From the IMG/VR virus record IMGVR_UViG_3300037493_001371, positions 1 through 50,372 of that record: a stretch of 50,372 bases of DNA. The stretch is one strand, 5' to 3'. Below, one piece after another: positions 8,046 to 50,372 of the stretch. Origin of the DNA: a virus. The notes beneath the pieces were generated by a model, which was given only the letters and a program-made list of their open reading frames with translations, had not been told where the DNA came from and ran no database searches. Within the stretch, counting starts at the first letter, position 1. Each line of letters begins with the position of its first letter. The position numbers were made by a program, and so were the translations under genes.

Positions 8046-8069
8046 CAAACGATTAATAAATAAAATAAG

Positions 8070-8777: not shown

Positions 8778-8790
8778 TAAATAAAAAGAC

Positions 8791-9420: not shown

Positions 9421-9432
9421 TATAATAAAAGC

Positions 9433-9753
9433 ATGAAAGCTAAATGTGCATGTGGAAGATGTGCTAGTTGTAAATCTCCACTTAAAAAAACTGCTGCTTG
9501 GACACGTAAAGAAGGGAAGTCTGCGACTGGTGGATTGAATGCAAAAGGAGTAGCGAGTTATAGAAAAGAAAATCCTGGATCAAAACTACAAACAGCGGTA
9601 ACTAAAAAACCGTCTGAATTAAAAGCAGGTAGTAAAGATGCAAAGAGGCGTAAATCTTTTTGCGCTAGAATGTCTGGTATGCCAGGACCGCTGAAAAAAC
9701 CTAACGGTGAACCAACAAGAAAGAAACTTGCGTTGGATAAATGGAATTGCTAA
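9433..9753 (+). CDS. DUF6321-like small basic Cys-containing protein
   Basis: 106 residues. The N-terminus MKAKCACGRCASCKSPLKK has four Cys in a Cx1Cx2Cx2C arrangement, a likely metal site. The rest, AAWTRKEGKSATGGLNAKGV, ASYRKENPGSKLQTAV and SFCARMSGMPGPLKKPNGEP ending LDKWNC, is the signature I know as DUF6321, common in marine phages and some large viruses. Function unknown, probably virion- or DNA-associated. It lies between fibre genes. Confidence 0.8.
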   Translation: MKAKCACGRCASCKSPLKKTAAWTRKEGKSATGGLNAKGVASYRKENPGSKLQTAVTKKPSELKAGSKDAKRRKSFCARMSGMPGPLKKPNGEPTRKKLALDKWNC

Positions 9754-9771
9754 TAAATAAAAAAAATATAA

Positions 9772-11064: not shown

Positions 11065-11081
11065 TATAATAAAAAACTAAA

Positions 11082-12527
11082 ATGAGTATAAAATTTAAAA
11101 GTGGAATAACTTTAGAAGCGTTAAGTAATGCGTCAATAGATACGGATAAATTCCTAGTATCTGATAGTGGAAATATAAAGTATAGAACTGGTGCACAGTT
11201 ATTATCCGATATAGGAGGTCAAGCTGCGTTAGTTAATCCTATTACAGGTACTGGTACAACAAACTATATTTCTAAGTTTACTGGAGCTACCGCGCTAGGT
11301 AATAGTGGGATATTTGACACAGGAACAGATATAGGTATTGGAACAACTACTCCATTATCTAGAGTGCAGATTACAGGAACTGCTACTGGAGATGTACTAA
11401 CATTAAGCTCCAAAGTGCCATCTCTTGGTGGCTATATATTAACTTGTAATGATATTGATGATGCACCGTTATTTGTAGTATTTGGTAATGTTGCAAATTC
11501 TAACTATACTGTAGCTATGGGTGATTGGCAAGGCGGAAACCCCTCTTTTCAAGTTACTAATTATGGATCTTATTTTCTTAATACCTCAGTCGCTATTAAT
11601 ACACTATCGCCGAGCCAGGCTTTACATGTAGCTGGTAACGCTAGGGTAACTGGCGCATATTACGATTCAACAAATTCACCAGGAACAAACGGACAAGTAT
11701 TGTCATCTACAGTTACTGGCACAGATTGGATAACCCTACCAACAGGAAATATTAGTGGATCAGGAACTACAAACTATGTAGCAAAATTTACTGGGGCTAC
11801 CGCTTTAGGTAATGGTATAATATTTGATAATGGGACTAATGTTGGTATTAATACCACCACACCTTCTACTAGATTAGATGTTAATGGAGTAATAACAGCT
11901 TTTGGAGGCACTTCAACAGATTGGAATGCAAAACAAGCTGCTTTAGTTAGTGGTACTAATATTAAAACAGTTAACGGCAACTCTATTTTAGGAAGTGGAA
12001 ACTTATCTACGAAAGGGGTTCATACATTAGTAAAACCAGCAGTAGGACAAAGTACTTCATTTGGATTAACAGCTACAACTGTTTCAAGCGGGTCTAGTTT
12101 CGCTCTTAGATTAATTGTTGTTCCTTATATACCAGCAAATACAATAACTTGTTCATCACTGTATATAAATATTGCTAGTTCATTAGGTGGAGCAAACGCT
12201 AGAATATTAATTTATTCGGACAATAATGGTACTCCTGGAACTAAAATATATGAAAGCGCTAATTTAGATTGTTCTACAACAGGGATAAAGTCCGCGATAA
12301 CAACACAAACATTTATAGCTGGAACCACATATTGGATTGGTACGCATAGTTCTGCAGTATTTACATATAGTTCATATACTGCTGCATCATTATTGCCTAT
12401 AATAGTGAATCAAACAGCACAAATAACGCAATTTTATATTACGGCGGCATTTGGCTCTGCTCCTTCAACTTTTGGAACACCTTCAACTAGTGCTCTATCA
12501 GTGCCACTGGTTGGTATAACAATTTAA
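11082..12527 (+). CDS. Fibre protein with two KFTGATALGN repeats
   Basis: 481 residues. Two copies of the fibre repeat are present, at about residues 56-98 (TTNYISKFTGATALGNSGIF then GIGTTTPLSRVQ) and about 225-267 (TTNYVAKFTGATALGNGIIF then GINTTTPSTRLD). The C-terminal 170 residues form a different beta-rich domain (ANARILIYSDNNGTPGTKIY, then TQTFIAGTTYWIGTHSS), possibly the receptor-binding part. Virion fibre assigned by repeat type and neighbourhood. Confidence 0.7.
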   Translation: MSIKFKSGITLEALSNASIDTDKFLVSDSGNIKYRTGAQLLSDIGGQAALVNPITGTGTTNYISKFTGATALGNSGIFDTGTDIGIGTTTPLSRVQITGTATGDVLTLSSKVPSLGGYILTCNDIDDAPLFVVFGNVANSNYTVAMGDWQGGNPSFQVTNYGSYFLNTSVAINTLSPSQALHVAGNARVTGAYYDSTNSPGTNGQVLSSTVTGTDWITLPTGNISGSGTTNYVAKFTGATALGNGIIFDNGTNVGINTTTPSTRLDVNGVITAFGGTSTDWNAKQAALVSGTNIKTVNGNSILGSGNLSTKGVHTLVKPAVGQSTSFGLTATTVSSGSSFALRLIVVPYIPANTITCSSLYINIASSLGGANARILIYSDNNGTPGTKIYESANLDCSTTGIKSAITTQTFIAGTTYWIGTHSSAVFTYSSYTAASLLPIIVNQTAQITQFYITAAFGSAPSTFGTPSTSALSVPLVGITI

Positions 12528-12537
12528 AAATAATATT

Positions 12538-12693
12538 ATGGCAGAAATTAGAAAAGAAATATATGACGACAATGGCCTTGTTGAGGTAGTCTTTATAGAA
12601 GTTGACGAACCAACACAAGAAGAACTTATAGCTCAGAAAGAAGCTGAGTTAATAGCTATATATAAAGAAATAGAAATATTAAAAAATAAATAA
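12538..12693 (+). CDS. 51-residue acidic protein between fibre genes
   Basis: ATG at 12538-12540 and TAA at 12691-12693, overlapping the start of the next fibre gene (TAATGG). The protein is MAEIRKEIYDDNGLVEVVFI followed by a helix (PTQEELIAQKEAELIAIYKE). Its position between two fibre genes suggests a fibre-associated or assembly role, which is inference. It is too short for most automatic annotation. Confidence 0.65.
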   Translation: MAEIRKEIYDDNGLVEVVFIEVDEPTQEELIAQKEAELIAIYKEIEILKNK

Positions 12694-13676
12694 TGGCAAT
12701 AATATATAGTTATCCAAAAGTTATTACATTAAATAACTCAGATCTATTAATAGGTTCTAGATTTGAAAACGAAGACGGGGGAGAAGCTAGGACTATTAGT
12801 TTTACAGCTGAAACTTTAGTAGAATTTGTTAATGCAAATGTTGCTCCTTCATTAGATCAAGTTTTAACAAATGGTAATGAATCATTACAAGACGCTAAAG
12901 TTGGTAGTATATTTTTATACAATACAAATGTTCCTTCAGGATTAGGATATGTGTATATTACGGGAGATAAAAATAGATTTAATTTCTATAATAATGCAGA
13001 TGTAAATTATGGATATATAGGACAAGACACTTTATCTTTAATAGATTCTGTTGTTCCTGCTCGCCAATTTCAAATTACTAAACCTGCCGCTATTGGAGCA
13101 AATAGAACGGCAACATTTCAAGATGCATCAGGAACTATTGCTTATTTGTCAGATATAACTAGCTATGGCTTAGCTACTCAATTAGCTAATTCAACCCCGA
13201 TAGCAAATACTACAACAAAGAGTACATTAAATGGTTCTTCTTATGCTGGTACATTATCAGTACCTGCAAACGGATTTAATGTTGCAGATTCTTTCAATGT
13301 TTATATGATGGGTCACATAAGTAACAATAATAATGTTGGTTTAACTATTACTATAGAAACAGTTGCTGGAGTCGTATTAGCGACTACGGGGCTTATGTCA
13401 TTAGCGGTTAGTTCAAATAATCATTGGGTATTAGATGCGGACTTTGTAATAAGAGCAATTGGCACAACTGGCACTGCTAGTATAATTACTGCTGGTAGTT
13501 TTGCCCACACTAAGTCCTCAAATAACAATCTTGAGACTTATAATTTTATAAGCGAAAACACTACAACATTTAATACAACTGTAACAAATGAATTAGTTAT
13601 AAAAGCACAGTGGGGCACCGCGTCTGCTTCTAATTCTATATATTCAAACGTATTCATTTTAAACAAAGTATATTAA
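12693..13676 (+). CDS. Fibre protein with jelly-roll head
   Basis: 327 residues. It shares the MAIIYSYP anchor with the protein at 9772. Residues 45-160 are a Gly/Asn-rich shaft. Residues about 185-327 look like a TNF-like or jelly-roll head (NSTPIANTTTKSTLNGSSYA, TGLMSLAVSSNNHWVLDADF), ending NELVIKAQWGTASASNSIYS, a C-terminal pattern common in phage fibre heads. Likely receptor-binding fibre. Confidence 0.7.
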   Translation: MAIIYSYPKVITLNNSDLLIGSRFENEDGGEARTISFTAETLVEFVNANVAPSLDQVLTNGNESLQDAKVGSIFLYNTNVPSGLGYVYITGDKNRFNFYNNADVNYGYIGQDTLSLIDSVVPARQFQITKPAAIGANRTATFQDASGTIAYLSDITSYGLATQLANSTPIANTTTKSTLNGSSYAGTLSVPANGFNVADSFNVYMMGHISNNNNVGLTITIETVAGVVLATTGLMSLAVSSNNHWVLDADFVIRAIGTTGTASIITAGSFAHTKSSNNNLETYNFISENTTTFNTTVTNELVIKAQWGTASASNSIYSNVFILNKVY

Positions 13677-13678
13677 TT

Positions 13679-13939
13679 ATGGAAATGCCAATATCATTTA
13701 AAGAGTTTTCTAAGGATCCTGTTAAAGGTTTATTATTCTTAGTAATACTTGCTGTTGGATATTTATATGTCGACAACAAGATGAACTATACTTCACAAAT
13801 AGATAAGTGTGGTATTAATGTAGAGCAACTAACAAAAAAAGTTGACAAACTTGACGAAAGATTAAAAAAATCAGATAGCACATTAGCAAGAGCTAGCGCT
13901 AAATTAGAAATGTTAAACGAAATTAAAGGACTTAAGTAA
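13679..13939 (+). CDS. Membrane-anchored coiled-coil protein (lysis cassette)
   Basis: 86 residues. One membrane helix at about residues 16-31 (GLLFLVILAVGYLYVD) is followed by a long coiled coil (VEQLTKKVDKLDERLKKSDS). The topology, a short cytoplasmic N-terminus with the coiled coil outside, fits an inner-membrane spanin or holin accessory. It overlaps the next gene by 1 nt and starts the lysis cassette. No catalytic motif. Function inferred from topology and neighbours. Confidence 0.6.
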   Translation: MEMPISFKEFSKDPVKGLLFLVILAVGYLYVDNKMNYTSQIDKCGINVEQLTKKVDKLDERLKKSDSTLARASAKLEMLNEIKGLK

Positions 13940-14298
13940 TGAAAAAATATATTATAATAATCATATTATGGTTCTTATTAGTTTCATGTGAAGAGACTGC
14001 TAAACATAAAGTAAAAGTAGAAAACACACCTATAGAATATGCTGATACTAAGAAGGTAGATAGTTTATTAGAAATGGTTGATGGATTTAAAATATCTGTT
14101 GATGAAGTTATTTACGAAAGAAATTCATTAGATGAAAAATTAATTTTAGTAAAAGAAGAACTAGCAACAACTAAAGATTCATTAGCCGCTGCAAATGAAA
14201 GAATAAAAGAATACAAGTATCCTAAAAAAAGATCGTTCTTTGATAAAGTACTTGGTAAAAATAAAGATTCAATAACAGTCATAGACACAATAAAATAA
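13939..14298 (+). CDS. Lipoprotein, outer-membrane spanin candidate
   Basis: 119 residues. The N-terminus MKKYIIIIILWFLLVSCEET is a lipoprotein signal peptide with a lipobox LVSC (Cys17 would be lipidated). A coiled-coil region follows (residues 70-98), then a basic tail. Lipoprotein plus coiled coil next to holin and endolysin genes suggests an outer-membrane spanin working with an inner-membrane partner (13679 or 14969). It is longer than typical Rz1 proteins. Confidence 0.6.
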   Translation: MKKYIIIIILWFLLVSCEETAKHKVKVENTPIEYADTKKVDSLLEMVDGFKISVDEVIYERNSLDEKLILVKEELATTKDSLAAANERIKEYKYPKKRSFFDKVLGKNKDSITVIDTIK

Positions 14299-14300
14299 TT

Positions 14301-14552
14301 ATGGGATTTTGGAAAGAATTAATTAGCGACGATAACACTATAAACGAAAAATCATTCGTTGGTGTGATTTCTTTTTTTATGATGGTGCTTGCTTTTCTAG
14401 TAGATATTATTACTGGAGTGTGGGGATCAAAATTAGTAATTGAGGAATTTATTTTTAATGGGTTTTTAATGTTAACTTCGGTAGTTTTTGGTATTGCTAC
14501 AGCTGGTAAAATTTTTAACAACAAAAAAAAGGAAAAAGATGCAACTGAGTAA
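14301..14552 (+). CDS. Holin candidate
   Basis: 83 residues with two hydrophobic helices (SFVGVISFFMMVLAFLVDII at about 18-37, and FIFNGFLMLTSVVFGIATAG at about 50-69) and a charged Lys-rich C-terminus (NNKKKEKDATE). Size, two-span topology and basic tail fit a class II holin, which would form the membrane lesion releasing the endolysin. Its last 14 nt overlap the endolysin start. No specific family name claimed. Confidence 0.7.
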   Translation: MGFWKELISDDNTINEKSFVGVISFFMMVLAFLVDIITGVWGSKLVIEEFIFNGFLMLTSVVFGIATAGKIFNNKKKEKDATE

Positions 14553-15000
14553 AAATTTAGATTTATCGGAAGTAATAAGAAGTGAAACTGCAAAAAGAAA
14601 AGGCATTAGTAACATGCCTACTCCTGAGCACATTGAAAACTTTAAAAAGTTAGCTGAGAACGTGTTTCAACCAATTAGAGATCATTTTGGTGTACCTATA
14701 CGTATTTCCTCAGGGTATAGAAGCAAAGCTCTTAATACTGCTATTGGCGGAAGTTTAAGTTCGCAGCATTGCCAAGGAGAAGCAATTGATATTGATATGG
14801 ATGGAACATCTATTACCAATGCTCAAATATTTAACTATATTAAAGATAATTTAATCTTTGATCAAATGATTTGGGAATTTGGTACAGATAAAAATCCAGA
14901 TTGGGTTCACGTTTCTTATGAATCAACAGGTAAACAAAGAAAGCAAATACTTAAAGCCGTAAAGGTTAATGGAAAAACAAGTTATGTTCCGTATAAGTAA
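14539..15000 (+). CDS. Endolysin: M15-family peptidoglycan peptidase
   Basis: 153 residues from the ATG at 14539, chosen because the longer frame would start inside the holin. The M15 peptidase core is visible: ISSGYRSKALNTAIGG (residues 56-71), the zinc ligands His77 and Asp84 in SSQHCQGEAIDID, and His124 in DWVHVS. Such enzymes cut D-Ala-D-Ala or L-Ala-D-Glu/DAP bonds of peptidoglycan. There is no signal peptide, so release depends on the holin. Position directly after the holin supports lysis function. Confidence 0.9.
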   Translation: MQLSKNLDLSEVIRSETAKRKGISNMPTPEHIENFKKLAENVFQPIRDHFGVPIRISSGYRSKALNTAIGGSLSSQHCQGEAIDIDMDGTSITNAQIFNYIKDNLIFDQMIWEFGTDKNPDWVHVSYESTGKQRKQILKAVKVNGKTSYVPYK

Positions 15001-15892: not shown

Positions 15893-17455
15893 ATGTCAGA
15901 TGAAATAGTAAAGAATCTCAGCTTTGGTAACGAAGCACGAGATAATGTATTTGCCGGTATAACAAAGTTAACTAAAGCAGTTAGCTCAACATTAGGAGCC
16001 GGTGGAAAATGCGTAATGTTGGAAGACAGTAAAGGTAGACCGTTAATTACAAAAGACGGGGTTACAGTTGCAGACAGTATTACATTATTAGATCCTGTAG
16101 AAAATATGGGTGCAAGGCTTTTAAAAGAAGCAGCTAGGAAAACAGTTAAAGAAGCTGGCGATGGTACAACTACCGCAACGGTATTAGCACATGCAATTTT
16201 AGAAGAAGCTTATGCAATTCAAGATACTGTAAGTTCAAGAGATTTAAAAAACGGTATTGAGACTACAGTAGATAAAGTTATAGAATATTTAGAATCTATT
16301 AAAGTTCCCGTAACTGGAGATATGATAGATCACATTGCCACTATATCAACAAACAACGATCCAGTACTTGGTAAAATTATTGGTGATGCTTTTAGAGCAG
16401 TTGGTGAAACTGGTATTGTTATGATGGAATCATCAGCAAATCCAGAAACAGAAATAGAAATTATAGATGGTGTACAATATGATAAAGGATTAGTAAATTC
16501 AAACTTTATCACAAACCCAAATAAAAGAATTGCCGAATTAGAAAATCCATTAGTATTGATTGTTGAATCACCAGTGGAATCTATTCGTCAGATACAATCA
16601 GTTTTAGAATATGTAATAAAGAATAACAAACCGTTATTAATTATTGCAGACATGGAACAAACTGTACTATCTGCTTTAGCAATGAATAAAGTTAAAGGTA
16701 ATATAAAGGTTAACGTTATCAATGCGCCTACTTATGGTATCACAAAAAAGGATACCTTAATGGATCTTGCTTTATTAACTGGAGCTACAATTATAAATGA
16801 AGATCTAGGAGACGATATGGATCTTATAGATATTGAATGTTTAGGTAACTGTTTGAAAGCAATAACAGATGACAGCGAAACAATATTACACGTTGGTGAA
16901 ACAAAAGAAGAAGTGCAAGAATTAATTGATGAGTTAAATTCGCAATTAAAAGATGCAACTGCTCCTGGTGATGTTATTAGATTAGAAAGAAGATTAGCTA
17001 GACTATCGGCAAAAGTTGCTGTTGTAAAAGTAGGTGCTGGATCTGATTTAGAATTAAAAGAAAAAGCTGATAGGGTTGAAGACGCAATTTGCGCAACCAA
17101 AGCAGCGATTAAAGAAGGAATTGTTCCAGGTGGAGGAATTGCTCTTTTAGATGCTTCAAAAAATGTCTTAACCACAAACAACGGAGGCATTGCTCTTCTA
17201 AGAGCCATTAAAGCTCCGTTTAAGACAATATTAAGTAATGCTGGTATTGATCATCCAGGAGATGATTGGAATCGCTTAGAAGGCTCTGGATTAAATGCCG
17301 TAACCGGTGAACAAGTGAACATGATAGAAGCAGGAATTATTGATCCTCTATCTGTTACTAAGAGCGCATTAAAAAATGCAGCATCCGTAGCTGTTACAAT
17401 ATTATCAACCGATTGTGTAATTAATAATTTAAGAGTTAATGAGAGCAATAGGTAA
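15893..17455 (+). CDS. groEL: GroEL-type chaperonin (60 kDa)
   Basis: 520 residues, near full length (E. coli GroEL has 548), with all three domains. ATP-site motifs are intact: KDGVTVA (54-60, Asp55), GDGTTTATVLA (89-99, Asp90) and RVEDAICATK with Asp397, the equivalent of catalytic Asp398, followed by EGIVPGGGIALL. The apical domain is recognisable (GVQYDKGLVNSNFI, KPLLIIADME). The Gly-Gly-Met tail of bacterial GroEL is missing; the protein ends VINNLRVNESNR. It would form an ATP-driven ring folding phage proteins such as capsid or fibre subunits. The GroES-like gene overlaps its end by 17 nt. Confidence 0.97.
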   Translation: MSDEIVKNLSFGNEARDNVFAGITKLTKAVSSTLGAGGKCVMLEDSKGRPLITKDGVTVADSITLLDPVENMGARLLKEAARKTVKEAGDGTTTATVLAHAILEEAYAIQDTVSSRDLKNGIETTVDKVIEYLESIKVPVTGDMIDHIATISTNNDPVLGKIIGDAFRAVGETGIVMMESSANPETEIEIIDGVQYDKGLVNSNFITNPNKRIAELENPLVLIVESPVESIRQIQSVLEYVIKNNKPLLIIADMEQTVLSALAMNKVKGNIKVNVINAPTYGITKKDTLMDLALLTGATIINEDLGDDMDLIDIECLGNCLKAITDDSETILHVGETKEEVQELIDELNSQLKDATAPGDVIRLERRLARLSAKVAVVKVGAGSDLELKEKADRVEDAICATKAAIKEGIVPGGGIALLDASKNVLTTNNGGIALLRAIKAPFKTILSNAGIDHPGDDWNRLEGSGLNAVTGEQVNMIEAGIIDPLSVTKSALKNAASVAVTILSTDCVINNLRVNESNR

Positions 17456-35128: not shown

Positions 35129-38100
35129 ATGGCAGAAACTACGAATAATTTTACAGGCGCTAAAATGAATAAAGATATTGATGATCGGTTAATTGCCGAA
35201 AATGAATATCGTAATGCTATAAATTTACAAATAAGCAAATCTGAAAATTCAGATGTTGGTGCCTTACAAACAATATTAGGGAATGAACTTGTTATAGATT
35301 TTAATACTTTAACAGAGTCTACTAATTTAGATTGTATTGGTTATTTTGTTGATACATCTAATAGTAGAGTATTTTTATTTTTAACAAATTATACAGATAC
35401 AACATTAAATGGCCAATATAATAAACTTGCAGACAATTATATATATTTATATAATTCTCTTCAAAATACTTATACAAAATTAGTAGAAGGACCATTCCTT
35501 AATTTTTCAAAAACAAATCCAATTATAGGTGTTAATCTTTTAGAAGACTTATTATTTTGGACAGACAATAGAAATCAGCCTAGAAAAATAAATATATCTA
35601 GAGCATTAAATTCAATTACATACTACACTATAGAAGATCAAATATCAGTTGCTAAATTAAGCCCTGTTTATGCGATAGATTTATATAAAACATCTGCACT
35701 TGAATTAGCAAGTACGGCAACTGTTGGAACTGTTTCTGGCTCTGGTCCGTATACTGCAGAAATAACACCTGGCCTAACATTCCCTGCAAGTTTAATAAAT
35801 ATTGGGGATATTGTTTATGCTACGCCTGGTACATCTGATTTTACCAGCGGCGAGGTTACAGCTATAAATACAACTGGTCCTAATGTAATTTCATTTACCG
35901 TTTCATCTGATACTATTTTTACTAGTGGTACAATATCTTTATTATATGTTAATAGAGACGAAACAACAATGTACAATGTTACCGATGAGTTTTTACCAGG
36001 AGGTGGATCAACAGCTATAGTGGATGGAGCTATTTCTGCTACTAATACATTTGTAATAGATGATCCGGGATTACCTGAATTTTGGCCCAAAGTTGGACAG
36101 TTAATATCAAGTACAGATCCTCTTTCAGATATACCACCTAACATAAGAGTAGTATCTTATAATGACACCACTTTTACTGTTGTAGTTGACGCTAATATAA
36201 CATTAGCAGATAACCTTGAGGTAAAGTTTAATGCTAATCCATATTATAATCCAGATTACATTGGGGATCCAACATTCTTAGAAAATAAATTCGTAAGATT
36301 TAGTTATAGATATAAATTTGATGATAATGAGTATTCAATTTTTGCTCCATTCACTCAAATAGCTTATATTCCAAGACAGGACGGGTATTTCTTATATGAA
36401 CCAAATCCTGACCCATTACAAGAACCTATAATAGATGATGAAACTGCTGCATATAGAAGTACTATTGTTTCATTTATGTATAATAAAGTTAATAATATTT
36501 TATTACAAATAAAATTACCTTGTAATGCAGATGAATTACAATCTAAATTTAAAATAGCAGAAATAGAAATATTATATAAAGAGTCGGATAACCTATCTGT
36601 ACAAACTGTTGACGTTATACCATATACAGAAATAGCTTCACAAGCGGGAACTGGTGATGTATATGTATATAATTACCAATCAAAAAAGCCATTTAGAACC
36701 CTACCAGAAAGAGATACTTTAAGGGTTTATGATAAAACACCTGTAAGAGCTTTAGGTCAAGAAATAGCAAGCAATAGAGTTATTTATAGTAATTATCAAG
36801 ACAAACAGGGTTACCCCAAGTTCTTAAATTACAATGTTGCATGTAATGAAAAAAGTCCTTTTAATTTAGAAGCAAATACCACTAGTCTAATAGAATATCC
36901 TAATCATTCTGTAAAACAAAATAGAAATTACGAAGTAGGTATTATCCTAAGCGATAAGTTTGGTAGACAATCAGGTGTGATATTGTCTAATGCTTTAAGT
37001 TCTTTTAATAACAGTTTTGGTGCGGCTTCATTGTATGTACCTTATAAAGAAGAAACTAGCCCCGGAAGTGAAATCCCAGAAGATGGATTAGTAAATCAAT
37101 GGCCTGGACTTTCATTAAAGGTATTATTTAATAATCCAATAGATAGCGGGGGAATTTCAGATTGGCCGGGTATATATAATGGTGTGGCTAATAGTGATGA
37201 TTACAATCCACTAGGGTGGTATTCCTATAAAATTGTGGTAAAACAAAACGAACAGGATTACTATAATGTATATTTACCCGGCATGATGGCCGCTTATCCA
37301 ATGGAACCATTAAAAGAACTTGATAAGACATCTCATTTTGTATTAATAGGAGATAATATAAACAAAGTACCTAGAGACTTAAATGATGTTAGTAATACAC
37401 AAGAACAATATAGAAGTAGTGTTAAATTATATTCTAGAGTAAATAATGTTGAACCAGATTGGCAAAACCAACAGTTTTATCCTGGTAATTCGTTTTCTTT
37501 TGTAAATACTATTGCAACGGTTAATTCTTTGTTTTCGCCTCCTATACCCCCTTTAGCTTTACCTGATGAATATTTACAATTTTACCAGGTAGTTTCAAAT
37601 CCTTTAATAGGTAGATTAACCACTGATACAAAACTTGGTATAACTACTGCTGAAGCCGGGCCAAGCGAACCGTTTGCAAAAACAATAAGATTAGCTGTTG
37701 CGGAAACCGATCCTTTTGATTCTAGGCTAGATATATATTGGGAAACATCAACTTCTGGTATAATAAGCGAATTGAATGAAGCAATTGTAACCGGGTCTGA
37801 CGCTCCTTCAAGATTAGAAAATTGGAATTTTTTATTAGACGAAGCAGCTGAGCCTTTTGACCCTTTGTATAATCCGGTAAACGATTTTTACTTTGTGGAT
37901 TTAATTGGCACATTGTTAGAAATTCCATTAGGAGATATAACTATGACTGTTGTTGATGGAGCCGGGAATCCAAGAAATGAGTTTATTATGACTCAAGGAT
38001 CTGCTGATGGTAAATTTAATATAGAAATAATCGATTATTTTTATTATGGGTTTAACGCTATTCAATTAGAATCGTATAAATTTACATTTACTGTTAATAC

Positions 38101-38812
38101 TTTTATTCCAGTTCCAATAACATCTACTTTTACTAAGGATGGGCGATTAAGGAATGTAGACCCTACTATATTAAACAAACCAACCGAACCAATATTTCCA
38201 AGTCCACTTTCGCCAGTTGTTCATTTATTTCAAGGAAACAATGGCTCTAATATAAATGGAGGAAGAGACGGAGAAGATTTACAATGGTCAATACTTGGCG
38301 GTAGTATACAATTTCAAATAGATCCAGTAACTGGATTATTAACAAAAACATTTGTTGATATAGATCAAGGAACCGCAGAATTAACAATAGTATTAACAGA
38401 TGCCGGAGGAGATACCGATCAAGTAGACATAACTATAGTTATATCCGCTACTGCAGGTATTAGCGTTAACACTGATATAACATCAACACAAATAACTGGA
38501 ACATTCTCTGCTGTTGGTGAAATAACAGTTTTAGATGGATATAACTGTGAGGTAAGAGCCGGGGCATTTCCTTTTCCGGACGGACCAAACAATGTACAGG
38601 CAACTGTTACTATAGTTGGCTATTCAGCTTTATTTGCAAGTGCTTTTGATGGGGCGCCGGGGTCATTCTCCTCTGAGGCTCATGTTTTATCTGGACCTGG
38701 AACCTACACATTTAACAATATATTTGTTATCTTCTCAGGAGGAGGCGGCTCAGGTGATATTTCTGAACTAGGCGGAGGAGGAACTGGTGGTATGTATTTA
38801 CAAAGTGTATAA
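35129..38812 (+). CDS. Large muzzle/stabilisation-type tail protein
   Basis: 1227 residues. The N-terminus (AETTNNFTGAKMNKDIDDRL, then NEYRNAINLQISKSENSDVG) is the motif by which crAss-like stabilisation proteins are recognised, related in role to P22 gp10. The body is a series of beta-propeller-like repeats. Residues about 1020-1115 resemble cadherin/Ig-like modules (QIDPVTGLLTKTFVDIDQGT), and the end is Gly-rich (FSGGGGSGDISELGGGGTGG). It probably closes the tail channel and supports fibres. Confidence 0.8.
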   Translation: MAETTNNFTGAKMNKDIDDRLIAENEYRNAINLQISKSENSDVGALQTILGNELVIDFNTLTESTNLDCIGYFVDTSNSRVFLFLTNYTDTTLNGQYNKLADNYIYLYNSLQNTYTKLVEGPFLNFSKTNPIIGVNLLEDLLFWTDNRNQPRKINISRALNSITYYTIEDQISVAKLSPVYAIDLYKTSALELASTATVGTVSGSGPYTAEITPGLTFPASLINIGDIVYATPGTSDFTSGEVTAINTTGPNVISFTVSSDTIFTSGTISLLYVNRDETTMYNVTDEFLPGGGSTAIVDGAISATNTFVIDDPGLPEFWPKVGQLISSTDPLSDIPPNIRVVSYNDTTFTVVVDANITLADNLEVKFNANPYYNPDYIGDPTFLENKFVRFSYRYKFDDNEYSIFAPFTQIAYIPRQDGYFLYEPNPDPLQEPIIDDETAAYRSTIVSFMYNKVNNILLQIKLPCNADELQSKFKIAEIEILYKESDNLSVQTVDVIPYTEIASQAGTGDVYVYNYQSKKPFRTLPERDTLRVYDKTPVRALGQEIASNRVIYSNYQDKQGYPKFLNYNVACNEKSPFNLEANTTSLIEYPNHSVKQNRNYEVGIILSDKFGRQSGVILSNALSSFNNSFGAASLYVPYKEETSPGSEIPEDGLVNQWPGLSLKVLFNNPIDSGGISDWPGIYNGVANSDDYNPLGWYSYKIVVKQNEQDYYNVYLPGMMAAYPMEPLKELDKTSHFVLIGDNINKVPRDLNDVSNTQEQYRSSVKLYSRVNNVEPDWQNQQFYPGNSFSFVNTIATVNSLFSPPIPPLALPDEYLQFYQVVSNPLIGRLTTDTKLGITTAEAGPSEPFAKTIRLAVAETDPFDSRLDIYWETSTSGIISELNEAIVTGSDAPSRLENWNFLLDEAAEPFDPLYNPVNDFYFVDLIGTLLEIPLGDITMTVVDGAGNPRNEFIMTQGSADGKFNIEIIDYFYYGFNAIQLESYKFTFTVNTFIPVPITSTFTKDGRLRNVDPTILNKPTEPIFPSPLSPVVHLFQGNNGSNINGGRDGEDLQWSILGGSIQFQIDPVTGLLTKTFVDIDQGTAELTIVLTDAGGDTDQVDITIVISATAGISVNTDITSTQITGTFSAVGEITVLDGYNCEVRAGAFPFPDGPNNVQATVTIVGYSALFASAFDGAPGSFSSEAHVLSGPGTYTFNNIFVIFSGGGGSGDISELGGGGTGGMYLQSV

Positions 38813-38882: not shown

Positions 38883-40313
38883 ATGGCAGCGGCAATAGAA
38901 ATTAAATATTTTAATACTTTTTTATTAAAGAAAGTATTAAGCAATGAACTTTTAGATTATGAACCTGTATATGGCGGATCTTTTGGTATACCAGAAGAAA
39001 TTGGCGGTTATCCAGCACCAGATTTATTAAATATTTTAGATGATAATTATAGCGAATGGGTTATAGAAGAATCTAGAATACAAGGGGGCTTTAACGATAC
39101 TACAGTTGATTTTGGTGTAAAAGCATACTTAGTTGAAGATGACAATGGTGCTTCTATTAGAGCAAATTCTTTAATATACTCAGGTATATATAATTCAAGA
39201 ACAGGCATTAATAATACTAATCAATTTTCTGTTGCTGAAGATATAACAAAAAGTCTTAATCCATCTAATGGTTCAATACAAAAATTATATGCGGAAGATA
39301 CAAACTTAATAATCTTTCAAGAAGATAAAGTTAGTAGAGCATTAATTGATAAAGATGCAATATATTCTGCTGAAGGCGGAGGAACAGTAACGTCGTCTAA
39401 TGCTGTAATTGGAGATATTCAAGCTTATGCTGGTAATTATGGTATTAGTCAAGACCCACAAAGTTTTGCTGTATATGGATATAGAAAATACTTTACTGAT
39501 AGATTTAGAAATGCAGTACTTAGATTATCACAAGATGGTTTAACTGAAATTTCTGAAAACGGTATGACTGACTTTTTTAGAGATACTTTTAATAATATAA
39601 ATTCTGCTCAATATGGGCAAGGTAATGTTATTGGGGGATGGGATATTCATAATAAACAATATGTTTTATCTTTACAACGTAGTGTCTCAAATCCTGATCA
39701 AAATTATAGTACCTTAAACTTTGATGAATTAGTTAATGGTTTTTCAAGTTTTCTTACTTTTAAACCTACACAACTATTTAGTATAAGGAATAAAGTATTT
39801 TCATTAAATTCAGGTACTCTTTGGATACATTATAGTAATAACGTTCCGGTTGGATCGTTTTATGGTGTTACATCACCAGCTTCTATAACTTTTGTGTTTA
39901 ATGAAAACCCAGCGGTTAGTAAAAACTTTAAAACAGTAAACTACGAAGGAGACAATGGTTGGCAGGTTAATAGTTTTATATCAGATGCTCAAAGAGCGGA
40001 TCCAGGCAGTACACCAGGTACATGGATTTCTACGTATGATACTACAGCATTAGTACCAAGTTATATAGGAGGCGTTTATGTTGATGGAGGTGTAACTTAC
40101 CATTATGGCTTTGATAGAAAAGAAAATAAATATTTTGCAAACTTAACAAATAATAGTTTACCAACTGACGGTGAAGTAATTTACGGCGCGCAAATGACGG
40201 GTATTAAAGGGAGATATGCTACTGTAACAATGTCCACAGATGCTGTTACTAATCCCGGTGGGTTAAAAGAATTATGGAGCGTTGGTTCGGTATATTCTAT
40301 ATCAAGTTACTAA
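38883..40313 (+). CDS. Second stabilisation/muzzle-type tail protein
   Basis: 476 residues. Motifs include VIEESRIQGGFNDTTVDFG, IQKLYAEDTNLIIFQEDKVS, GYRKYFTDRFRNAVLRLSQD and the very characteristic ENGMTDFFRDTF, all found in crAss-like tail stabilisation or muzzle proteins. In this genome these motifs are in a separate gene from the NFTGAKMNKD protein upstream, so the function seems split over two products. Beta-propeller-like, no catalytic site. Confidence 0.75.
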   Translation: MAAAIEIKYFNTFLLKKVLSNELLDYEPVYGGSFGIPEEIGGYPAPDLLNILDDNYSEWVIEESRIQGGFNDTTVDFGVKAYLVEDDNGASIRANSLIYSGIYNSRTGINNTNQFSVAEDITKSLNPSNGSIQKLYAEDTNLIIFQEDKVSRALIDKDAIYSAEGGGTVTSSNAVIGDIQAYAGNYGISQDPQSFAVYGYRKYFTDRFRNAVLRLSQDGLTEISENGMTDFFRDTFNNINSAQYGQGNVIGGWDIHNKQYVLSLQRSVSNPDQNYSTLNFDELVNGFSSFLTFKPTQLFSIRNKVFSLNSGTLWIHYSNNVPVGSFYGVTSPASITFVFNENPAVSKNFKTVNYEGDNGWQVNSFISDAQRADPGSTPGTWISTYDTTALVPSYIGGVYVDGGVTYHYGFDRKENKYFANLTNNSLPTDGEVIYGAQMTGIKGRYATVTMSTDAVTNPGGLKELWSVGSVYSISSY

Positions 40314-43044: not shown

Positions 43045-46000
43045 ATGCTTGAGTACATCGACGATTTAGGACAAACATATACAGAAGACGATATAAATAG
43101 AATGGCAGCCGAGCAGAAAATCTCGGCTGATGCCATTATAAAAAACAAGAAGTTAAAACAGAAAGCTACAAAGAGTACTGTTGCGGCTAAGCCAAAAGCA
43201 AAAAAATATCCTTGGAGCGATGGCCAAGAAAAAAAAGAGCCAGGTTTTTTAGATACGTTTAAGAAAGCTAAGAAAGCAAATATAAAAAAGAGTACTGAAA
43301 AGGTTTCTAATTTTGTTAATCAGCAAGATCAGGCTTTGCCGTTTGTATCTGCAGATCCTATGCAAGATATTTTAAATCCTGCTGCAAAATTTAATAAAAC
43401 ACTTGAGGAGGTGTCTAAAGTTCCTGTAAAACAAGAGTTTGAAACATTAGAAGACAAAGAAGCTGAGATTGTTAATTATATAAAAAGTAAACCTATTGAT
43501 TATGGTTTAATTGATGAGGAATATAATAATGAAATTAACAACTCGCAAACAATTGATAACGTAAGAGAAAGTGCTAAAGGTTTCTTTAATGAAATGGTAT
43601 TAGGACCAGTTTCTATGGTTGGTCAAGCTATTGGTGCTGATATTGACTTAACAATATCTCCATATAAGCCATTAGAGAAAGAAAAAAAGGAAGCAATAAC
43701 TATACTATCAAGAGGCAAGAAAAAAGGTGATAAAATAAGCAATGCTGATATTGACGCGCTTGCTAAAGATATATTTTATAAACAAAAAGTATTAGTTCAA
43801 GAGGGTAAAGCAGCCGAAGAATTTTGGGATAACCAACCATTATATCTACCTGAAGTTGCTGAACAAAAAGAAAAGCTTAAAATTAGATCAATGCAAGATG
43901 TACTTGTATCGTCTGATTTAGCTCGTCAACAAACCATATTAGCTAAAACTTATGGCAATGAATTATCTGCTTTTGAAATATACTCTAATGACTTTAAAAA
44001 GAAGTATGATTCTGGAGATGTTACAGACGAGGAGATAGCTAAATATGAAGTTAGAAGAGAAGGAGCTAAGAGGGCTGTAGAAAGTTTAAAAGGAGTATAC
44101 GATAATTTTCCTAATTACATAGATAAAATAAAAAGCGACGAAGAGAAGCTTGAATATTTTAAATATAATTATGATGATGTTACTGCTAATATGCAAAGAC
44201 TAATTGGAACGAGTCTTAATATAGTTGGTGGTACAGGAAAAATACTTGGATCTACGCTTGAATACATAGAAGGAGACAAATATGGCATTGGAGGATTACT
44301 TAGCGAAGCATCAGGCACTACTATAGATGTAGGTAATAAGATTAAAGAAGATGTTAAAAATACATCTTTTAGTGATGTTAATTCTTTTGGAGACTTTGGT
44401 AAATACTTTTCTGGATTAGTATCCGAACAACTTCCTATATATGCCTCAATGTATTTTGGTGGAAATTATGGAGCTGCGGCTGTTTCATTAGGGTCTGGCG
44501 GACAAAAGATCCAGGAAATGGAAAATGAAGTTGGATCTGATTATGATTTAGGATCAAAGCTTTTAGCTGGATACGGATTTGCTCTTGCGGAATTTGTGCC
44601 TGAGAAATTAGGTACTCTAAGAATGTTTGATAACATGAAACGTGTTATGTCAACTGTCGGTAATCAACCTAGGCAAATATTTAAAGAAAGCTTTATTAAG
44701 TCAACTTTATCTACAATAGGTCTTGCCGGGGTAGAGAGTCAAATTGAGGGGGGTACTGAGGTCCTTACTGAAGGATTAGATATGCTTATTGATGAGCATT
44801 TGTTAGGTAAAACCGTTTCTTCATCAGATAGATCTAAAAGGTTTAAAGAGGCTTATGCTGGCGGAGCATTTATGAGTGGTGGTTTACAATTAGGGGGTGG
44901 AGTTTCTACATTAGTTACAAAAGAATTAAAAAACTACGCTACCGATCAAGAAATGGCAGCTAGCAAAAATTTAATGGACCGTATTGACTTTTTACAAACA
45001 GAGATGCAAACTAATACAAAATTATCTGGTAAAGAAACAGATGAAATAAGATTAGAAATAAATAGACTTGCTAATGAATCTGTAAAGGTTATTGAGAACT
45101 CACAAGATAGAGTTTATGACATGCCTGTTGAAGATATGACTGCTGTTTTAGAAATAAACAAAAAACAACAAGATTTAAAAGAAGAATATGTAAATTTATC
45201 TCAATCTAATTTTTCACCAGAAATTAAGAAAGATAAAGCTATTGAATTAAAAGATCAATTCAGTAAATTAGAAAGTGAAAGAGAATTTTTATTAACTGGT
45301 AAATACGCTGCAATAAATAAAATAATAGGTAATAGATCTGTTATAAATAGTAATGTTGAAAATATTAAAAAGATTGTAGCTACTTTAGGCGAAGAAAATA
45401 TTAATAACAAAATAGGTAATCAAGGGTCTATTGCTGTATTTGAGAATACAGATGAACTTCAGAAAGCTTATAAAGAATGGTTAGTTACAGAAAATAACAG
45501 TACGAAGAAAGCAATCTCTTCTGGAGAATTACCTGCTAATACAACTATAAAATCTGATGATCAAATAAACGCAGAGGTTGCTGAAGCAATTAAATCTGAT
45601 GGGTTTAGTTTGCCAAACGGGCAATCTGTTATTAACCTTAGTGTTGCTTCAAGAGTTGGGGCAATTAATGTTGCTCAACATGAATTTTTACATAAAGTAT
45701 TAGGTAAAGCTCTTAGTAACCCTCAAGAAAGAAAAAAAGTTGTTAATGGATTTTTATCTGTATTAACTACTAAAGAAAGAGCGGTTGTACAAAAACGTAT
45801 TGATGATAATTATTTAGACAAAGATACTGGTAAATTAAGCGATGAAAATTTAGAAGAATATTTTACAGCATTTATTGATGCTATCGCTTACGGCGAAATT
45901 GGCGATAAAAACCAAGTTAAAGATGTATTAAGAAGAGCTGCTAGACCAGTACTTAGAGTATTGCAAAAGCTTGGGTTTTCAAATGCTAAATTTAGTGAGG

Positions 46001-49000
46001 GACGTGATTTTTATGATTTCTTAAAAGAATATCAATCCAATGCAAGTAAAGGCCGAATAAGTAAAAGAGCTCAAAGTTTATTAACCGGTGAGCCAATATC
46101 TAGAACAATAAAATATTCTAAATCAATAGAAGATAGAATGGATGATCTTGATGATCAACTTAATAATAATGAAATTGATTATGATACTTACGAAGTAAAG
46201 ATGATTGCTCTTGAAAAAGAGGAAGCTGAATTAGCTCGTAAAGAATATGAAGAAAAAAGAAACGAAGTTAAGCCAACAGAAAAGAAACCTGCAGAAAAGA
46301 AACCTACAAAAGCAAAAGAAGATGTAGAGGTAAGTGATGTAGCTAATAAAGCAAAAGCTAAACTTGATGCTATCGGTAATGATCCAAAAGGATTTAATCC
46401 TAATAACCCAGAAATTTATTCAGAGCTTGACAAAATGGTTAAAGTTAAGTCTAGAAACTACAAAACAGCAAAAGGAACCGTAATAGATCTTACAAATAAA
46501 GATAGAGGTGGTATTGATGGGTTTAATATGGAAGAGATGGTTAGTTATGTGAGAACATCGATGATACCTTATATTGCTAAATTTGATCCTGCTAGAAATA
46601 ATAGTTTATATGGATATATAAACGCTCAGTATATAAACCGTATGAAAGGGGCTCTAAAAAGTGGTGAAGTTGCGGATGTAGTATTTACAGAAGATGTTTC
46701 TGAAATGACTAAGTTAGCTAATGAAGATGTAGAAGTAACTAAGCCTTCATTACCAGAAAGAAAACGTTTCCAAAATATATTAGAATCTGGTGTATTTAGT
46801 CCAGATGTTATTGCTAATATCCAAGCTAAAATTCTACCTGTGGTTAGAACATTGAAATCAAAGATTAATGAAAAGACTTCTATAAATAAGACTGTTGTTC
46901 CGTTAATTAGTGAGATAAAAGATGAAATGGGTAAACAAGCTGACATTGATATTAAAAAAGCAATGGGCGGTAAAGAGAATCAAGAGTTACAAAATTGGTT
47001 AATTACCAATAAGAAAACAATTCTTGAGAATATGACTACTACATGGTTAATGGGTAAGGATGGAGTTGGAGGTATGCCTTTTGCTATTCAGAAAAAGATA
47101 AATGGTAGATGGGTTAATTTTCCTGAATGGAAAGGTCAAAAAATAGATCGTGAATCTGTATCAACTGATTTAGCCGGTAGAACTTCTGGAGCTGAATTAG
47201 TTAGAAGATTACCTGAAGTTAATAAGAATGTACCAACGGTAGATTATTTATCTTCAATTATAGATTTAGAAACCGGTAATGTACTTAGAGGAAGAAAAGA
47301 ATCTTTAGCTAAAGCATTAGCTGAAGAAGTTTCATTTGATATTATATCCGATGATATTGCTAATGATGGAATTATTGCAGAAGCATTAAATAAAAATCAG
47401 GAATTAAAGGGAGCTGTTGTTGAAAAAATAATGGTTGAAGAGTTTAATAGATTAACAGAACGTGGAAATGTTAAATTCTCGTTATCAAAAAGAAACATTG
47501 ATGTTGATGCGGCTATAAAATATATAGTTTCAACAAAAGGTGATATAGATATAATAAACTTAACATTAAAAGAACCATCAAAAGATTATAATACTACCGA
47601 GTTTAGAAAACTTCATAAGTATTTAGTTAGTAATGGAGTTACTGAAGATGATATAAATGTTATAATTAATAAGTATACCGAAGCGCTAAATAAAGTAGGA
47701 TATGGTTACCATGAAAAGTTTATTGAATCAATAATAAATTCTACTTCAAAAACAGGTATTGTTGCTAAAAATTACGGAGGCAATAGTAATGTATTACCAG
47801 ATTTAGTTATTGGTAAAAACTCTAATATAAATACAGTACAGGCTTTAAGAAAGAACAAAGGCAATATTGCTATTGTTGAGGTTAAATTATCTCCATTTGC
47901 TAGGATAACATCAAGCACATTAAGTTCATTAATTAATAAATATTCTAATGAAGATTGGTTTGATAATGTAAATACAATTTATGATAATTTTAAAAAATCT
48001 GATTTGTATTCTAAACTATCCGAATATTTTGAAAGAGATGCTAATGGAAAAATAAATGTTACAAAAGCACGCGCAATAAGAATTAAACCAGACAGTATTC
48101 AATTAGTTAAAGACTTACTTGTTGGGAATGTTTCTATTGGAGATAAAGATTTACCGCTAAGCTCAGTTACATCGATAAACAATAATAAGTCTTATCCAAA
48201 TGATTTATTAGTATTAGGTACTTATGCTACAGATTATTTTGGGCCGGAATTTTTAAGTTCATACAATATTGATTTAGGCGAGAATAATGATATGGATCCT
48301 AATATAATTAATAGTAGAATAGAATTAAAAATAGATAACGGTGGTTTCTTAAGAGCTAGAGTGTATTTCAGCATAAAGAGAGATACTGCTAATCAAATAT
48401 ATAAAGTAAATAAAGAATCCAATAATCTTAATACTTTAAAAGACAAAGCGCAATTAGTAATAGATAATAAAATACTTATTAGACATTCTAAATCTTTAGA
48501 AAACAATTTAAACTCTTTCAAAAAAGACGATAAAGGCATTACATTAATTTCTGATTATATTACTAAAAACGATATTAAAAGAATTGACGCTGAAACATCT
48601 TTTGAGGTATTAAATGATCTTAACAAATCTATTGAAGATTGGTGGGGAGTTGTTTCTGACAAAGCTATTGAAGGTATGAATAGATCTGTTGACTATGCCT
48701 TTGATATTATTGAGAATCGTGAAAACGAAGGTGGCTCATTAATGGCTGCCGTAAATGACGCACTTAATGTAGAAACAATTAAATTTGCAGAGAAGCAATT
48801 AAATGATTGGATAAATTCAGATCCTAAATGGAGCGCAAGACCTAAGTTTAGTAAATCATTAGATTATGAATTTAATGATATGTTGGAACGTAATAAGAAT
48901 GTTCCTTCATACGAAAAGATTTCAGATATTGTTGCAAAAAGAGCGGGTACAAAAGCAAATACCTTATCTTTCTTTGTTCCGCCATCTGCAGATGACTTTA

Positions 49001-50372
49001 GAGGTTTAACTACTTATATGTTTGCTGGTAAAGGAAAACAAGGAGAATTAGATCAACAATTCTTTGATTCTAATTTAGTCATACCTTATGTTAAAGGTAT
49101 TAACGCTTTGGATTCTGTTCGTCAATCTATAAAAAAGGAATACAAAAAGTTACTTAATAGTTTCCCTGACATTAAAAAGAAATTAGAAAAGTTAACTCCA
49201 GATAAACAATTTACTTATGATCAGGCTGTTAGGGTTTATTTATGGCATAAAAACGATATAGATGTTCCTGGATTAAATAGAAGAGATAAAAACAAATTGG
49301 TATTCTTAGTTAAGAATGATCCAAATCTTATTAGTTTTGCTGAAGCATTATCAGTAGCCGGTAGACAAGATGGTGGATGGATGAATCCTTCTACAACATG
49401 GGATAGTGAAACTATTATATCAGACTTACATAATATAACAGAAGGCGAAGGCAGAAAGATATGGTTATCTGAGTTTATAGAAAATGCTAATGCAATTTTT
49501 ACTACTGAGAACCTTAATAAAGTACAGGCAACTTACGGTACGAATATTAGAGTAGCACTGGAAGATTCTTTATATAGAATGAAAAACGGTAAGAATAGAC
49601 CAGAAGGCTCTGATAGACTTACTAATGTATGGATGAATTGGATCAATGGATCTACCGCAGCAATTATGTTTTTTAATGTAAGATCAGCGTTATTACAAAC
49701 TATATCATCAACTAACTATTTGAACTGGAATGATAATAATCCTTTAGCCGCTGCTACAGCGTTTGCAAATCAAAAACAATATTGGTCTGACTTTGCTAAA
49801 ATTATTAATTCAGATAAAATGCGTGAAAGAAGATCTGGTTTAAAAGCGGATGTTAACCAAGCTGAGATTGCTAATGCTGCAAATAGCGCAACTAACAAAG
49901 CGCGAGGAGTATTATCTTATTTACAAAAAATTGGGTTTACGCCAACACAGGCGGCAGATAGTTTCTCTATTGCTTTAGGTGGTTCTTCATTTTATAGAAA
50001 TCGTGTTAACACTTATTTAAAACAGGTTGATGAAGATGGTAATAAAATAAATACACTTGAAGAAGCTGAAGATAAAGCTTGGGTTGATTTTTCTATAATA
50101 ACAGATCAATCAATGCAATCTGCTGATCCAATGTACGTATCTAAGCAACAAACGACCTCATTAGGACGTCTTGTATTGGCTTTTGCTAATACTCCTATGC
50201 AATATAATAGACAGATAAAAAAAGCGTCCTTAGACTTAGTTAATAAGCGCGGAGATTGGAAAAGTAATGTTTCTAAAATAATTTATTACGGAGCGTTACA
50301 AAATATCTTATTCTCGGCATTACAAGCAGCATTGTTTTTACCATTTGAAGAAGAAGATGAAGAGGCTATTGC
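43045..50372 (+). CDS. Giant polyvalent virion protein, 3' truncated by window
   Basis: Opens at the ATG at 43045-43047 (MLEYIDDLGQTYTEDDINRM) and stays open for 2442 codons to the window end. Visible in order: Lys-rich N-terminus; hydrophobic Gly-rich helices around residues 400-620 with IEGGTEVLTEGLDML; HExxH zincin at 879-883 (AQHEFLHKVLGKAL) with LEEYFTAFIDAIAYGE downstream; Lys/Glu/Pro linker about 1070-1095; a sigma-region-2-like stretch 1162-1205 (MIPYIAKFDPARNNSLYGYI); PD-(D/E)xK nuclease motif (Asp1586, then Glu1612-x-Lys1614 in IAIVEVKLS); and a C-terminal region with ITDQSMQSADPMYVSKQQTT, LGRLVLAFANTPMQYN, resembling LPD38. Probably packaged and ejected with the genome, where it may process host or phage targets. 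Confidence 0.85.
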   Translation, partial: MLEYIDDLGQTYTEDDINRMAAEQKISADAIIKNKKLKQKATKSTVAAKPKAKKYPWSDGQEKKEPGFLDTFKKAKKANIKKSTEKVSNFVNQQDQALPFVSADPMQDILNPAAKFNKTLEEVSKVPVKQEFETLEDKEAEIVNYIKSKPIDYGLIDEEYNNEINNSQTIDNVRESAKGFFNEMVLGPVSMVGQAIGADIDLTISPYKPLEKEKKEAITILSRGKKKGDKISNADIDALAKDIFYKQKVLVQEGKAAEEFWDNQPLYLPEVAEQKEKLKIRSMQDVLVSSDLARQQTILAKTYGNELSAFEIYSNDFKKKYDSGDVTDEEIAKYEVRREGAKRAVESLKGVYDNFPNYIDKIKSDEEKLEYFKYNYDDVTANMQRLIGTSLNIVGGTGKILGSTLEYIEGDKYGIGGLLSEASGTTIDVGNKIKEDVKNTSFSDVNSFGDFGKYFSGLVSEQLPIYASMYFGGNYGAAAVSLGSGGQKIQEMENEVGSDYDLGSKLLAGYGFALAEFVPEKLGTLRMFDNMKRVMSTVGNQPRQIFKESFIKSTLSTIGLAGVESQIEGGTEVLTEGLDMLIDEHLLGKTVSSSDRSKRFKEAYAGGAFMSGGLQLGGGVSTLVTKELKNYATDQEMAASKNLMDRIDFLQTEMQTNTKLSGKETDEIRLEINRLANESVKVIENSQDRVYDMPVEDMTAVLEINKKQQDLKEEYVNLSQSNFSPEIKKDKAIELKDQFSKLESEREFLLTGKYAAINKIIGNRSVINSNVENIKKIVATLGEENINNKIGNQGSIAVFENTDELQKAYKEWLVTENNSTKKAISSGELPANTTIKSDDQINAEVAEAIKSDGFSLPNGQSVINLSVASRVGAINVAQHEFLHKVLGKALSNPQERKKVVNGFLSVLTTKERAVVQKRIDDNYLDKDTGKLSDENLEEYFTAFIDAIAYGEIGDKNQVKDVLRRAARPVLRVLQKLGFSNAKFSEGRDFYDFLKEYQSNASKGRISKRAQSLLTGEPISRTIKYSKSIEDRMDDLDDQLNNNEIDYDTYEVKMIALEKEEAELARKEYEEKRNEVKPTEKKPAEKKPTKAKEDVEVSDVANKAKAKLDAIGNDPKGFNPNNPEIYSELDKMVKVKSRNYKTAKGTVIDLTNKDRGGIDGFNMEEMVSYVRTSMIPYIAKFDPARNNSLYGYINAQYINRMKGALKSGEVADVVFTEDVSEMTKLANEDVEVTKPSLPERKRFQNILESGVFSPDVIANIQAKILPVVRTLKSKINEKTSINKTVVPLISEIKDEMGKQADIDIKKAMGGKENQELQNWLITNKKTILENMTTTWLMGKDGVGGMPFAIQKKINGRWVNFPEWKGQKIDRESVSTDLAGRTSGAELVRRLPEVNKNVPTVDYLSSIIDLETGNVLRGRKESLAKALAEEVSFDIISDDIANDGIIAEALNKNQELKGAVVEKIMVEEFNRLTERGNVKFSLSKRNIDVDAAIKYIVSTKGDIDIINLTLKEPSKDYNTTEFRKLHKYLVSNGVTEDDINVIINKYTEALNKVGYGYHEKFIESIINSTSKTGIVAKNYGGNSNVLPDLVIGKNSNINTVQALRKNKGNIAIVEVKLSPFARITSSTLSSLINKYSNEDWFDNVNTIYDNFKKSDLYSKLSEYFERDANGKINVTKARAIRIKPDSIQLVKDLLVGNVSIGDKDLPLSSVTSINNNKSYPNDLLVLGTYATDYFGPEFLSSYNIDLGENNDMDPNIINSRIELKIDNGGFLRARVYFSIKRDTANQIYKVNKESNNLNTLKDKAQLVIDNKILIRHSKSLENNLNSFKKDDKGITLISDYITKNDIKRIDAETSFEVLNDLNKSIEDWWGVVSDKAIEGMNRSVDYAFDIIENRENEGGSLMAAVNDALNVETIKFAEKQLNDWINSDPKWSARPKFSKSLDYEFNDMLERNKNVPSYEKISDIVAKRAGTKANTLSFFVPPSADDFRGLTTYMFAGKGKQGELDQQFFDSNLVIPYVKGINALDSVRQSIKKEYKKLLNSFPDIKKKLEKLTPDKQFTYDQAVRVYLWHKNDIDVPGLNRRDKNKLVFLVKNDPNLISFAEALSVAGRQDGGWMNPSTTWDSETIISDLHNITEGEGRKIWLSEFIENANAIFTTENLNKVQATYGTNIRVALEDSLYRMKNGKNRPEGSDRLTNVWMNWINGSTAAIMFFNVRSALLQTISSTNYLNWNDNNPLAAATAFANQKQYWSDFAKIINSDKMRERRSGLKADVNQAEIANAANSATNKARGVLSYLQKIGFTPTQAADSFSIALGGSSFYRNRVNTYLKQVDEDGNKINTLEEAEDKAWVDFSIITDQSMQSADPMYVSKQQTTSLGRLVLAFANTPMQYNRQIKKASLDLVNKRGDWKSNVSKIIYYGALQNILFSALQAALFLPFEEEDEEAI

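Follow-up and report, generated by a model that had tools for sequence, protein, structure and literature searches.

The giant gene and its surroundings

The window, by which we mean the whole stretch of 50,372 bases analysed here, is an IMG/VR virus record and ends in a giant ORF on the plus strand (43045..50370). The ORF starts with an ATG at 43045 and runs uninterrupted through 2442 amino acids off the contig, and the frame of 2442 codons that a first-pass annotation of this DNA had described is, therefore, real. Complete relatives of the gene encode proteins of 2589–3196 amino acids and, because the giant of L007, which is 95% identical in the cores, runs on for another 245 amino acids, we conclude that the gene is truncated by the contig end and that the C-terminal ~245 residues are absent from the window. 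The first-pass annotation had the protein end, within the window, in an LPD38-like region; the protein continues beyond the contig end, and a search with Pfam PF18857 (LPD38), run without a positive control, matched neither the window nor any of five relatives at E ≤ 10.

The giant gene is located among the late virion genes. Upstream of it lie a terminase (phrog_6681), a portal (phrog_6547) and structural genes, followed by two plus-strand genes corresponding to the N-terminal part (35129..38812; PF25731, E 5e-9) and the C-terminal part (38883..40313; PF25729/PF25731, E 3e-10) of the crassvirus muzzle protein. A muzzle match was present in all eight relatives tested; in the window and seven of these relatives the muzzle is encoded in two parts by adjacent genes, and the eighth has a single match. 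The matches to PF25731/PF25729, by which a crass muzzle is recognised, lie above the cut-off, and by this muzzle match rather than by formal taxonomy we place the phage as a putative crAss-like podovirus related to flavobacterial podoviruses. In the Cellulophaga phage phi14:2, giant proteins from the same region (the RNA polymerase and its neighbours) were detected in virions by MS/MS and, in crAss001, the corresponding products gp45–gp50 are packed as capsid and tail cargo (PMC10172136). Because the giant gene follows the muzzle genes as these genes do, it is in a virion-cargo position. The window also encodes a GroEL-type chaperonin (15893-17455; PF00118, E 4e-59), and GroEL together with GroES is annotated in the elemo phages.

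We considered that the giant might be a diverged crassvirus polymerase and rejected this idea because the window protein lacks DxDGD, as the first-pass annotation had said, lacks DxDxD too, and showed no homology to phi14:2 gp66 in a search run without a positive control. A homolog of phi14:2 gp67 was not found either, and no polymerase-size ORF lies outside the structural block in two ~60 kb relatives. An RNA polymerase of their own is likely missing from these phages, a conclusion that we grade as likely because its basis is the size of the ORFs and the gp66 search just described.

Constant parts and exchangeable cassettes

The giant was compared with ~28 related giants from uncultured phages, and searches of viral contigs separated a close clade 1 (L004–L025 and L037) from a distant clade 2 (L024 itself and L045–L057). 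Sliding identity revealed conserved blocks alternating with exchangeable blocks: the N-terminal module, a zincin-type HE(F/V/I/L)LH domain and the C-terminal region are constant across the giants, with exchangeable cassettes between them. Specifically, identity between the window giant and that of L007 is 95% for the sigma-like core, 94% for the C-terminal region and 33% for each of the protease and nuclease segments. A Pfam scan of the window giant returned no domain above cut-off, scanning this giant together with its relatives against Pfam and PHROGs returned none either, and profile searches of solved structures with the sigma, protease, nuclease and C-terminal alignments returned chance matches only. 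The predicted models had mean pLDDT values of 59 and 49, the latter for the core model of residues 1060–1475.

The N-terminal module (residues 1–758; 43045..45318, plus strand) is common to structural proteins of Elemovirus, Gundelvirus and Callevirus (tblastn and profile E 3e-55, 3e-28 and 7e-23) and is probably the packaging and ejection part. Similarity to isolates is clear only over these N-terminal ~760 residues, and Gundel_1 has an additional match within the C-terminal region (E 9e-7). The conserved C-terminal region extends from residue 1939 to the contig end (48859..50370, plus strand). The complete giants of L005, L007 and L008 have a strongly basic C-terminal tail (KKRKRKMG). In L022, the giant frame is broken inside the sigma-like core into ORFs 6713-10480 and 10564-14742, reflecting either an assembly error or a real split.

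Residues 760–1023 (45322..46113, plus strand) form a zincin-like metallopeptidase domain, recognised by its conserved residues and the secondary structure of the model and present in all 13 clade-2 giants. The HExxH that the first-pass annotation had reported is the active-site motif HEFLH (residues 879–883; 45679..45693, plus strand), with a probable third ligand, E938, 55 residues on in a conserved E(E/L)x(F/L/M); in clade 1, a conserved acidic helix lies ~55 residues past HE(F/V/I/L)LH. In the AlphaFold model, a strand hairpin precedes the HEFLH helix and E938 is in a later helix, which is the zincin order. HE(F/V/I/L)LH is present in 29 of 31 relative sequences, the exceptions being L016, which has a different HExxH (HEIGH), and L022b, a fragment without the region. 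The protease family is constant despite the low identity of this segment between the window and L007, and the unrelated HEIGH of L016 fits a need for some zincin. The domain matches no curated family profile and no solved relative. In polyvalent proteins, zincin domains are the hub and have been proposed to process them (Iyer et al. 2017, PMC5512222).

Residues 1482–1813 (47488..48483, plus strand) form a PD-(D/E)xK nuclease-like cassette with E1557, D1586, E1612 and K1614. The last three residues had been singled out before at these very positions and are kept in every nuclease-type cassette, at a segment identity of 15–48%; all four persist at 15–42% identity, and through divergence to ~20%, between flanks that are 70–95% identical, and E/D/ExK cassettes are also found in L045, L052, L054 and L055. 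Judged from the aligned sequences, conservation of HE(F/V/I/L)LH and of D...ExK exceeds chance. In the AlphaFold model, E1557 is in a helix, D1586 at the start of a strand and E1612 and K1614 in the next strand, followed by helices, corresponding to the order of a PD-(D/E)xK core, and pLDDT in the nuclease part is mostly 70–90. A Foldseek search with the 1027-residue multi-domain model against PDB and viral models gave nothing significant, probably because this model comprises several domains of mixed confidence. The predicted structures did not scatter the motif residues over non-enzymatic folds.

The cassette that lies between protease and nuclease (residues 1028–1477; 46126..47475, plus strand) is sigma-region-2-like. 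In clade 2, only the four giants of L045–L048 (L046 and L048 being near-identical) match its core strongly, and the others are divergent or have a different block. The stretch resembling sigma regions 2.2–2.4 (residues 1162–1205; 46528..46659, plus strand) is where the first-pass annotation had located it and reads MEEMVSYVRTSMIPYIAKFDPARNNSLYGYINAQYINRMKGALK. At the same place, the Pfam profile Sigma70_r2 (PF04542) matches the giants of G003, G005 and G006 with 10.8–11.8 bits against a cut-off of 24 (E 0.010–0.024) and does not match the window copy; apart from the free-standing sigma gene, the profile matches nothing but this place in these three relatives. Of the 50 Foldseek matches listed for the model of residues 1060–1475 (350,542 chains searched), 26 are sigma factors of several kinds, none of them individually significant, and the best sigma match among those listed is to the N-terminal domain of SigE (E 3.1, TM 0.48, 2.7 Å over 52 columns). 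This model contains four helices at pLDDT 66–83, the remainder being poor. In hhalign comparisons with E. coli sigma factors, region 2 falls in register with residues 1162–1205 (P 0.11–0.14, not significant), and another segment of the giant outscores the sigma-like stretch. Clade-1 cassettes and several of those in clade 2 retain an FxPxxNxxLxG(Y/W) signature, and no sigma region 4 was recognised. We consider it quite probable that residues 1162–1205 adopt a region-2-like fold, and give sigma function slightly less than an even chance. Among the enzymatic and regulatory readings of the first-pass annotation, protease and nuclease are supported by conservation and predicted structure and sigma region 2 at the level of the fold with a subthreshold profile; the LPD38 label finds no support.

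A free-standing sigma factor gene (phrog_351, Sigma70_r2) is present in eight relatives, seven of clade 1 and one of clade 2 (G001:11439-12203, G003:6997-7755 and six others). It was not found in the window, probably because that part of the genome is missing there. Homology of this free-standing sigma factor to the sigma-like core of the giant was not detected.

The slot at residues 1478–1814 is occupied by PD-(D/E)xK cassettes in most giants, by an unrelated cassette in L019 and L023, and by ~85 residues only in L013 and L037; in clade 2, both the PD-(D/E)xK and the alternative slot types recur. The alternative cassette occurs in both clades (L019, L023, L046, L047, L049, L050, L051, L053, L056 and L057), has in common an R in an (I/V/W)R(S/T/K) context and EH(S/T/N/E), has no family match and may be a second effector family. 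In the distant clade, cassettes that we name by sequence pattern alone as HAD-like (WDFDDTLA) and ADP-ribosyltransferase-like (HGG...YFSE...A..YA) lie between motif sites, ahead of the C-terminal region; such cassettes were seen in L024/L045, L046, L049, L050 and L053.

A four-residue motif at the cassette edges

In the window giant, (F/Y/H)S(K/L/I/R)(S/T) occurs at residues 1024, 1478, 1814 and 1935, which are domain edges. All four sites are on the plus strand. YSKS (1024–1027; 46114..46125) is a candidate processing site; FSLS (1478–1481; 47476..47487) is where the identity of relatives falls sharply; HSKS (1814–1817; 48484..48495) is a further occurrence of the motif; and FSKS (1935–1938; 48847..48858) is empty in the window and, in seven relatives (L007, L008, L013, L019, L021, L023 and L037), is occupied by one or two further cassettes. 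The swapping of cassettes between copies of (F/Y)S(K/L)(S/T) is the main structural principle of the protein, which the first-pass annotation did not contain.

The motif was defined on clade 1 and clade 2 served as an independent test. In clade 1, we counted 41 motif copies against 6.3 expected and, in clade 2, 28 copies of the [FY] form against 5.2 expected and 26 copies of FSK(S/T) against 1.4, giving a recurrence at cassette edges of 5–7 times above chance. Among permuted controls, the reversed and FKSS forms were near chance in both clades, and SFKS was found 0 times in clade 1 and 12 times against 5.4 expected in clade 2. In proteins other than the giants, [FY]S[KLIR][ST] is rare in the window, G001 and G003 (5 copies in 44,169 residues), and the clade-2 loci have 22 copies in 52,030 residues. 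Change points in pairwise identity put the left junction of the nuclease cassette 3 residues past the motif F (median of 60 pairs); its right edge is tied more loosely to the motif, and some cassette boundaries have no motif (L016). Motif copies are not clearly enriched in cultured relatives (2 in elemo, 0 in Gundel_1 and 0 in phi38:1).

The serines of the motif use both TCN and AGY codons at approximately background frequency, indicating selection on the protein and not on a DNA site. Because these codons vary freely, we rejected a reading of FSxS as sites of recombination at the DNA level. The simplest reason for the motif would be a cleavage site, with a linker as the rival reading. In the literature searched, which was largely without subscription journals, neither a packaged sigma factor nor a (F/Y)S(K/L)(S/T) motif was reported.

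Possible functions and relation to known systems

Our working model, to which we give somewhat better than an even chance, is that the gene encodes a polyvalent cargo protein that is ejected and from which the zincin releases swappable effectors. We infer packaging, ejection, cleavage at the motif, action of the sigma-like part on host polymerase and the target of the nuclease. Judging from homology of the N-terminal module and from gene position, the giant would be packaged and then ejected with the DNA. The zincin would cut the chain at the (F/Y/H)S(K/L/I/R)(S/T) sites into separate products, either before the giant is packaged or once it has entered the host. One of these, sigma-region-2-like in a fold that we assign with moderate confidence, may direct host RNA polymerase to early phage genes; another, the PD-(D/E)xK product, may attack host or competitor DNA or counter defence. 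The nuclease is exchanged, replaced or deleted among close relatives, as expected for an arms-race effector. As for the C-terminal region, our guess is that it could be a scaffold or capsid-docking part. A stricter form of the model, in which the giant is a true polyprotein whose packaged chain cleaves itself at (F/Y)S|(K/L)(S/T) and frees, within the new host, a sigma factor that captures host RNA polymerase and replaces the crassvirus virion polymerase, along with swappable nucleases and other effectors, is tentative and, in our estimate, doubtful.

The motif coincides with recombination junctions, elemo and Gundel_1 retain HExxH without the motif array, and the N4 virion RNA polymerase has an MPTase and is yet packaged unprocessed (PMC5512222), all of which would fit a giant that, like the N4 protein, is packaged and ejected whole, with FSxS marking linkers or folding boundaries for recombination and HExxH acting on host proteins or the cell wall. 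However, nothing about a linker calls for so specific a pattern of four residues whose codons vary freely, and the zincin and the motif are kept together in both distant clades; we regard whole ejection as possible but on the unlikely side. If the sites are cut, the HExxH domain need not be the enzyme. In several phages, internal proteins are processed by a prohead protease dedicated to this task, and some capsid-module genes here have no recognisable function, so that a separate head-maturation protease might cut the sites and the HExxH domain might itself be an ejected effector. This arrangement appears improbable: no prohead protease was recognised among the scanned structural genes, and the window, G001 and G003 have few copies of the motif outside their giants, although 22 copies lie in such other proteins of the clade-2 loci.

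The sigma-like stretch, in turn, might be a chance resemblance of a helical hairpin, with residues 1060–1475 serving as structural or DNA-binding filler. The Sigma70_r2 scores below cut-off that miss the window copy, the hhalign P values, the low mean pLDDT of the core model and the lack of a recognised region 4 are all in line with such a resemblance. However, sigma factors of several kinds account for more than half of the listed Foldseek matches, the Pfam match, the hhalign register and the reading in the first-pass annotation converge on the same residues, and the FxPxxNxxLxG(Y/W) signature is kept across clade 1 and in several clade-2 cassettes. We, therefore, regard chance resemblance as rather unlikely.

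If the working model is true, the long-standing proposal that zincins process polyvalent phage proteins would gain a concrete rule for where they cut, exchange at motif sites would explain the gain and loss of effectors, and a sigma-like domain would stand as an alternative to the virion RNA polymerase known from crAss-like phages. With the motif, effector domains could be parsed from giant phage proteins by sequence alone, and the virus may bring an interchangeable toolkit into its host.

By its motifs, models and gene position, the giant displays the testable features of polyvalent ejected proteins, namely at least two unrelated predicted enzymatic signatures and the position of a late virion gene. 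As in polyvalent proteins such as P1 DdrB and the N4 virion RNA polymerase (Iyer et al. 2017, PMC5512222), many unrelated enzymatic domains are combined in one giant late product around a constant zincin hub, with presumed ejection with the DNA and, as proposed there, zincin processing. Unlike these proteins, the giant has no recognised LPD domain, contains a sigma-region-2-like domain ("sigma" has 0 occurrences in PMC5512222), and has cassettes bounded by (F/Y)S(K/L)(S/T), of which the nuclease cassette is swapped lineage-wide; the sigma-like part and the motif-bounded exchangeable cassettes are what is new relative to the described polyvalent members. The giant shares the position after the muzzle, the giant size and the probable fate as capsid cargo with the crassvirus cargo proteins (crAss001 gp45–gp50 and phi14:2 gp65–gp68), but a virion RNA polymerase is among those, and the giant instead combines parts of protease, sigma-like and nuclease type. 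The giant of the Flavobacterium elemo phages (NC_055852 gp21, 3694 amino acids) and the proteins of Gundel_1 and phi38:1 have a homologous N-terminal module in a structural gene block, and the elemo giant also has an HExxH (HEIFH at 1543), but they lack the FSxS array, and neither a sigma-like core nor a nuclease cassette was detected in them. Finally, the fusion of virion RNA polymerase and tape measure protein in phage P23-45 (PMC10770324) follows the same logic of delivering transcription machinery in a giant virion protein; there it is a polymerase that is delivered, whereas the giant would deliver at most a sigma-like domain working through the host polymerase.
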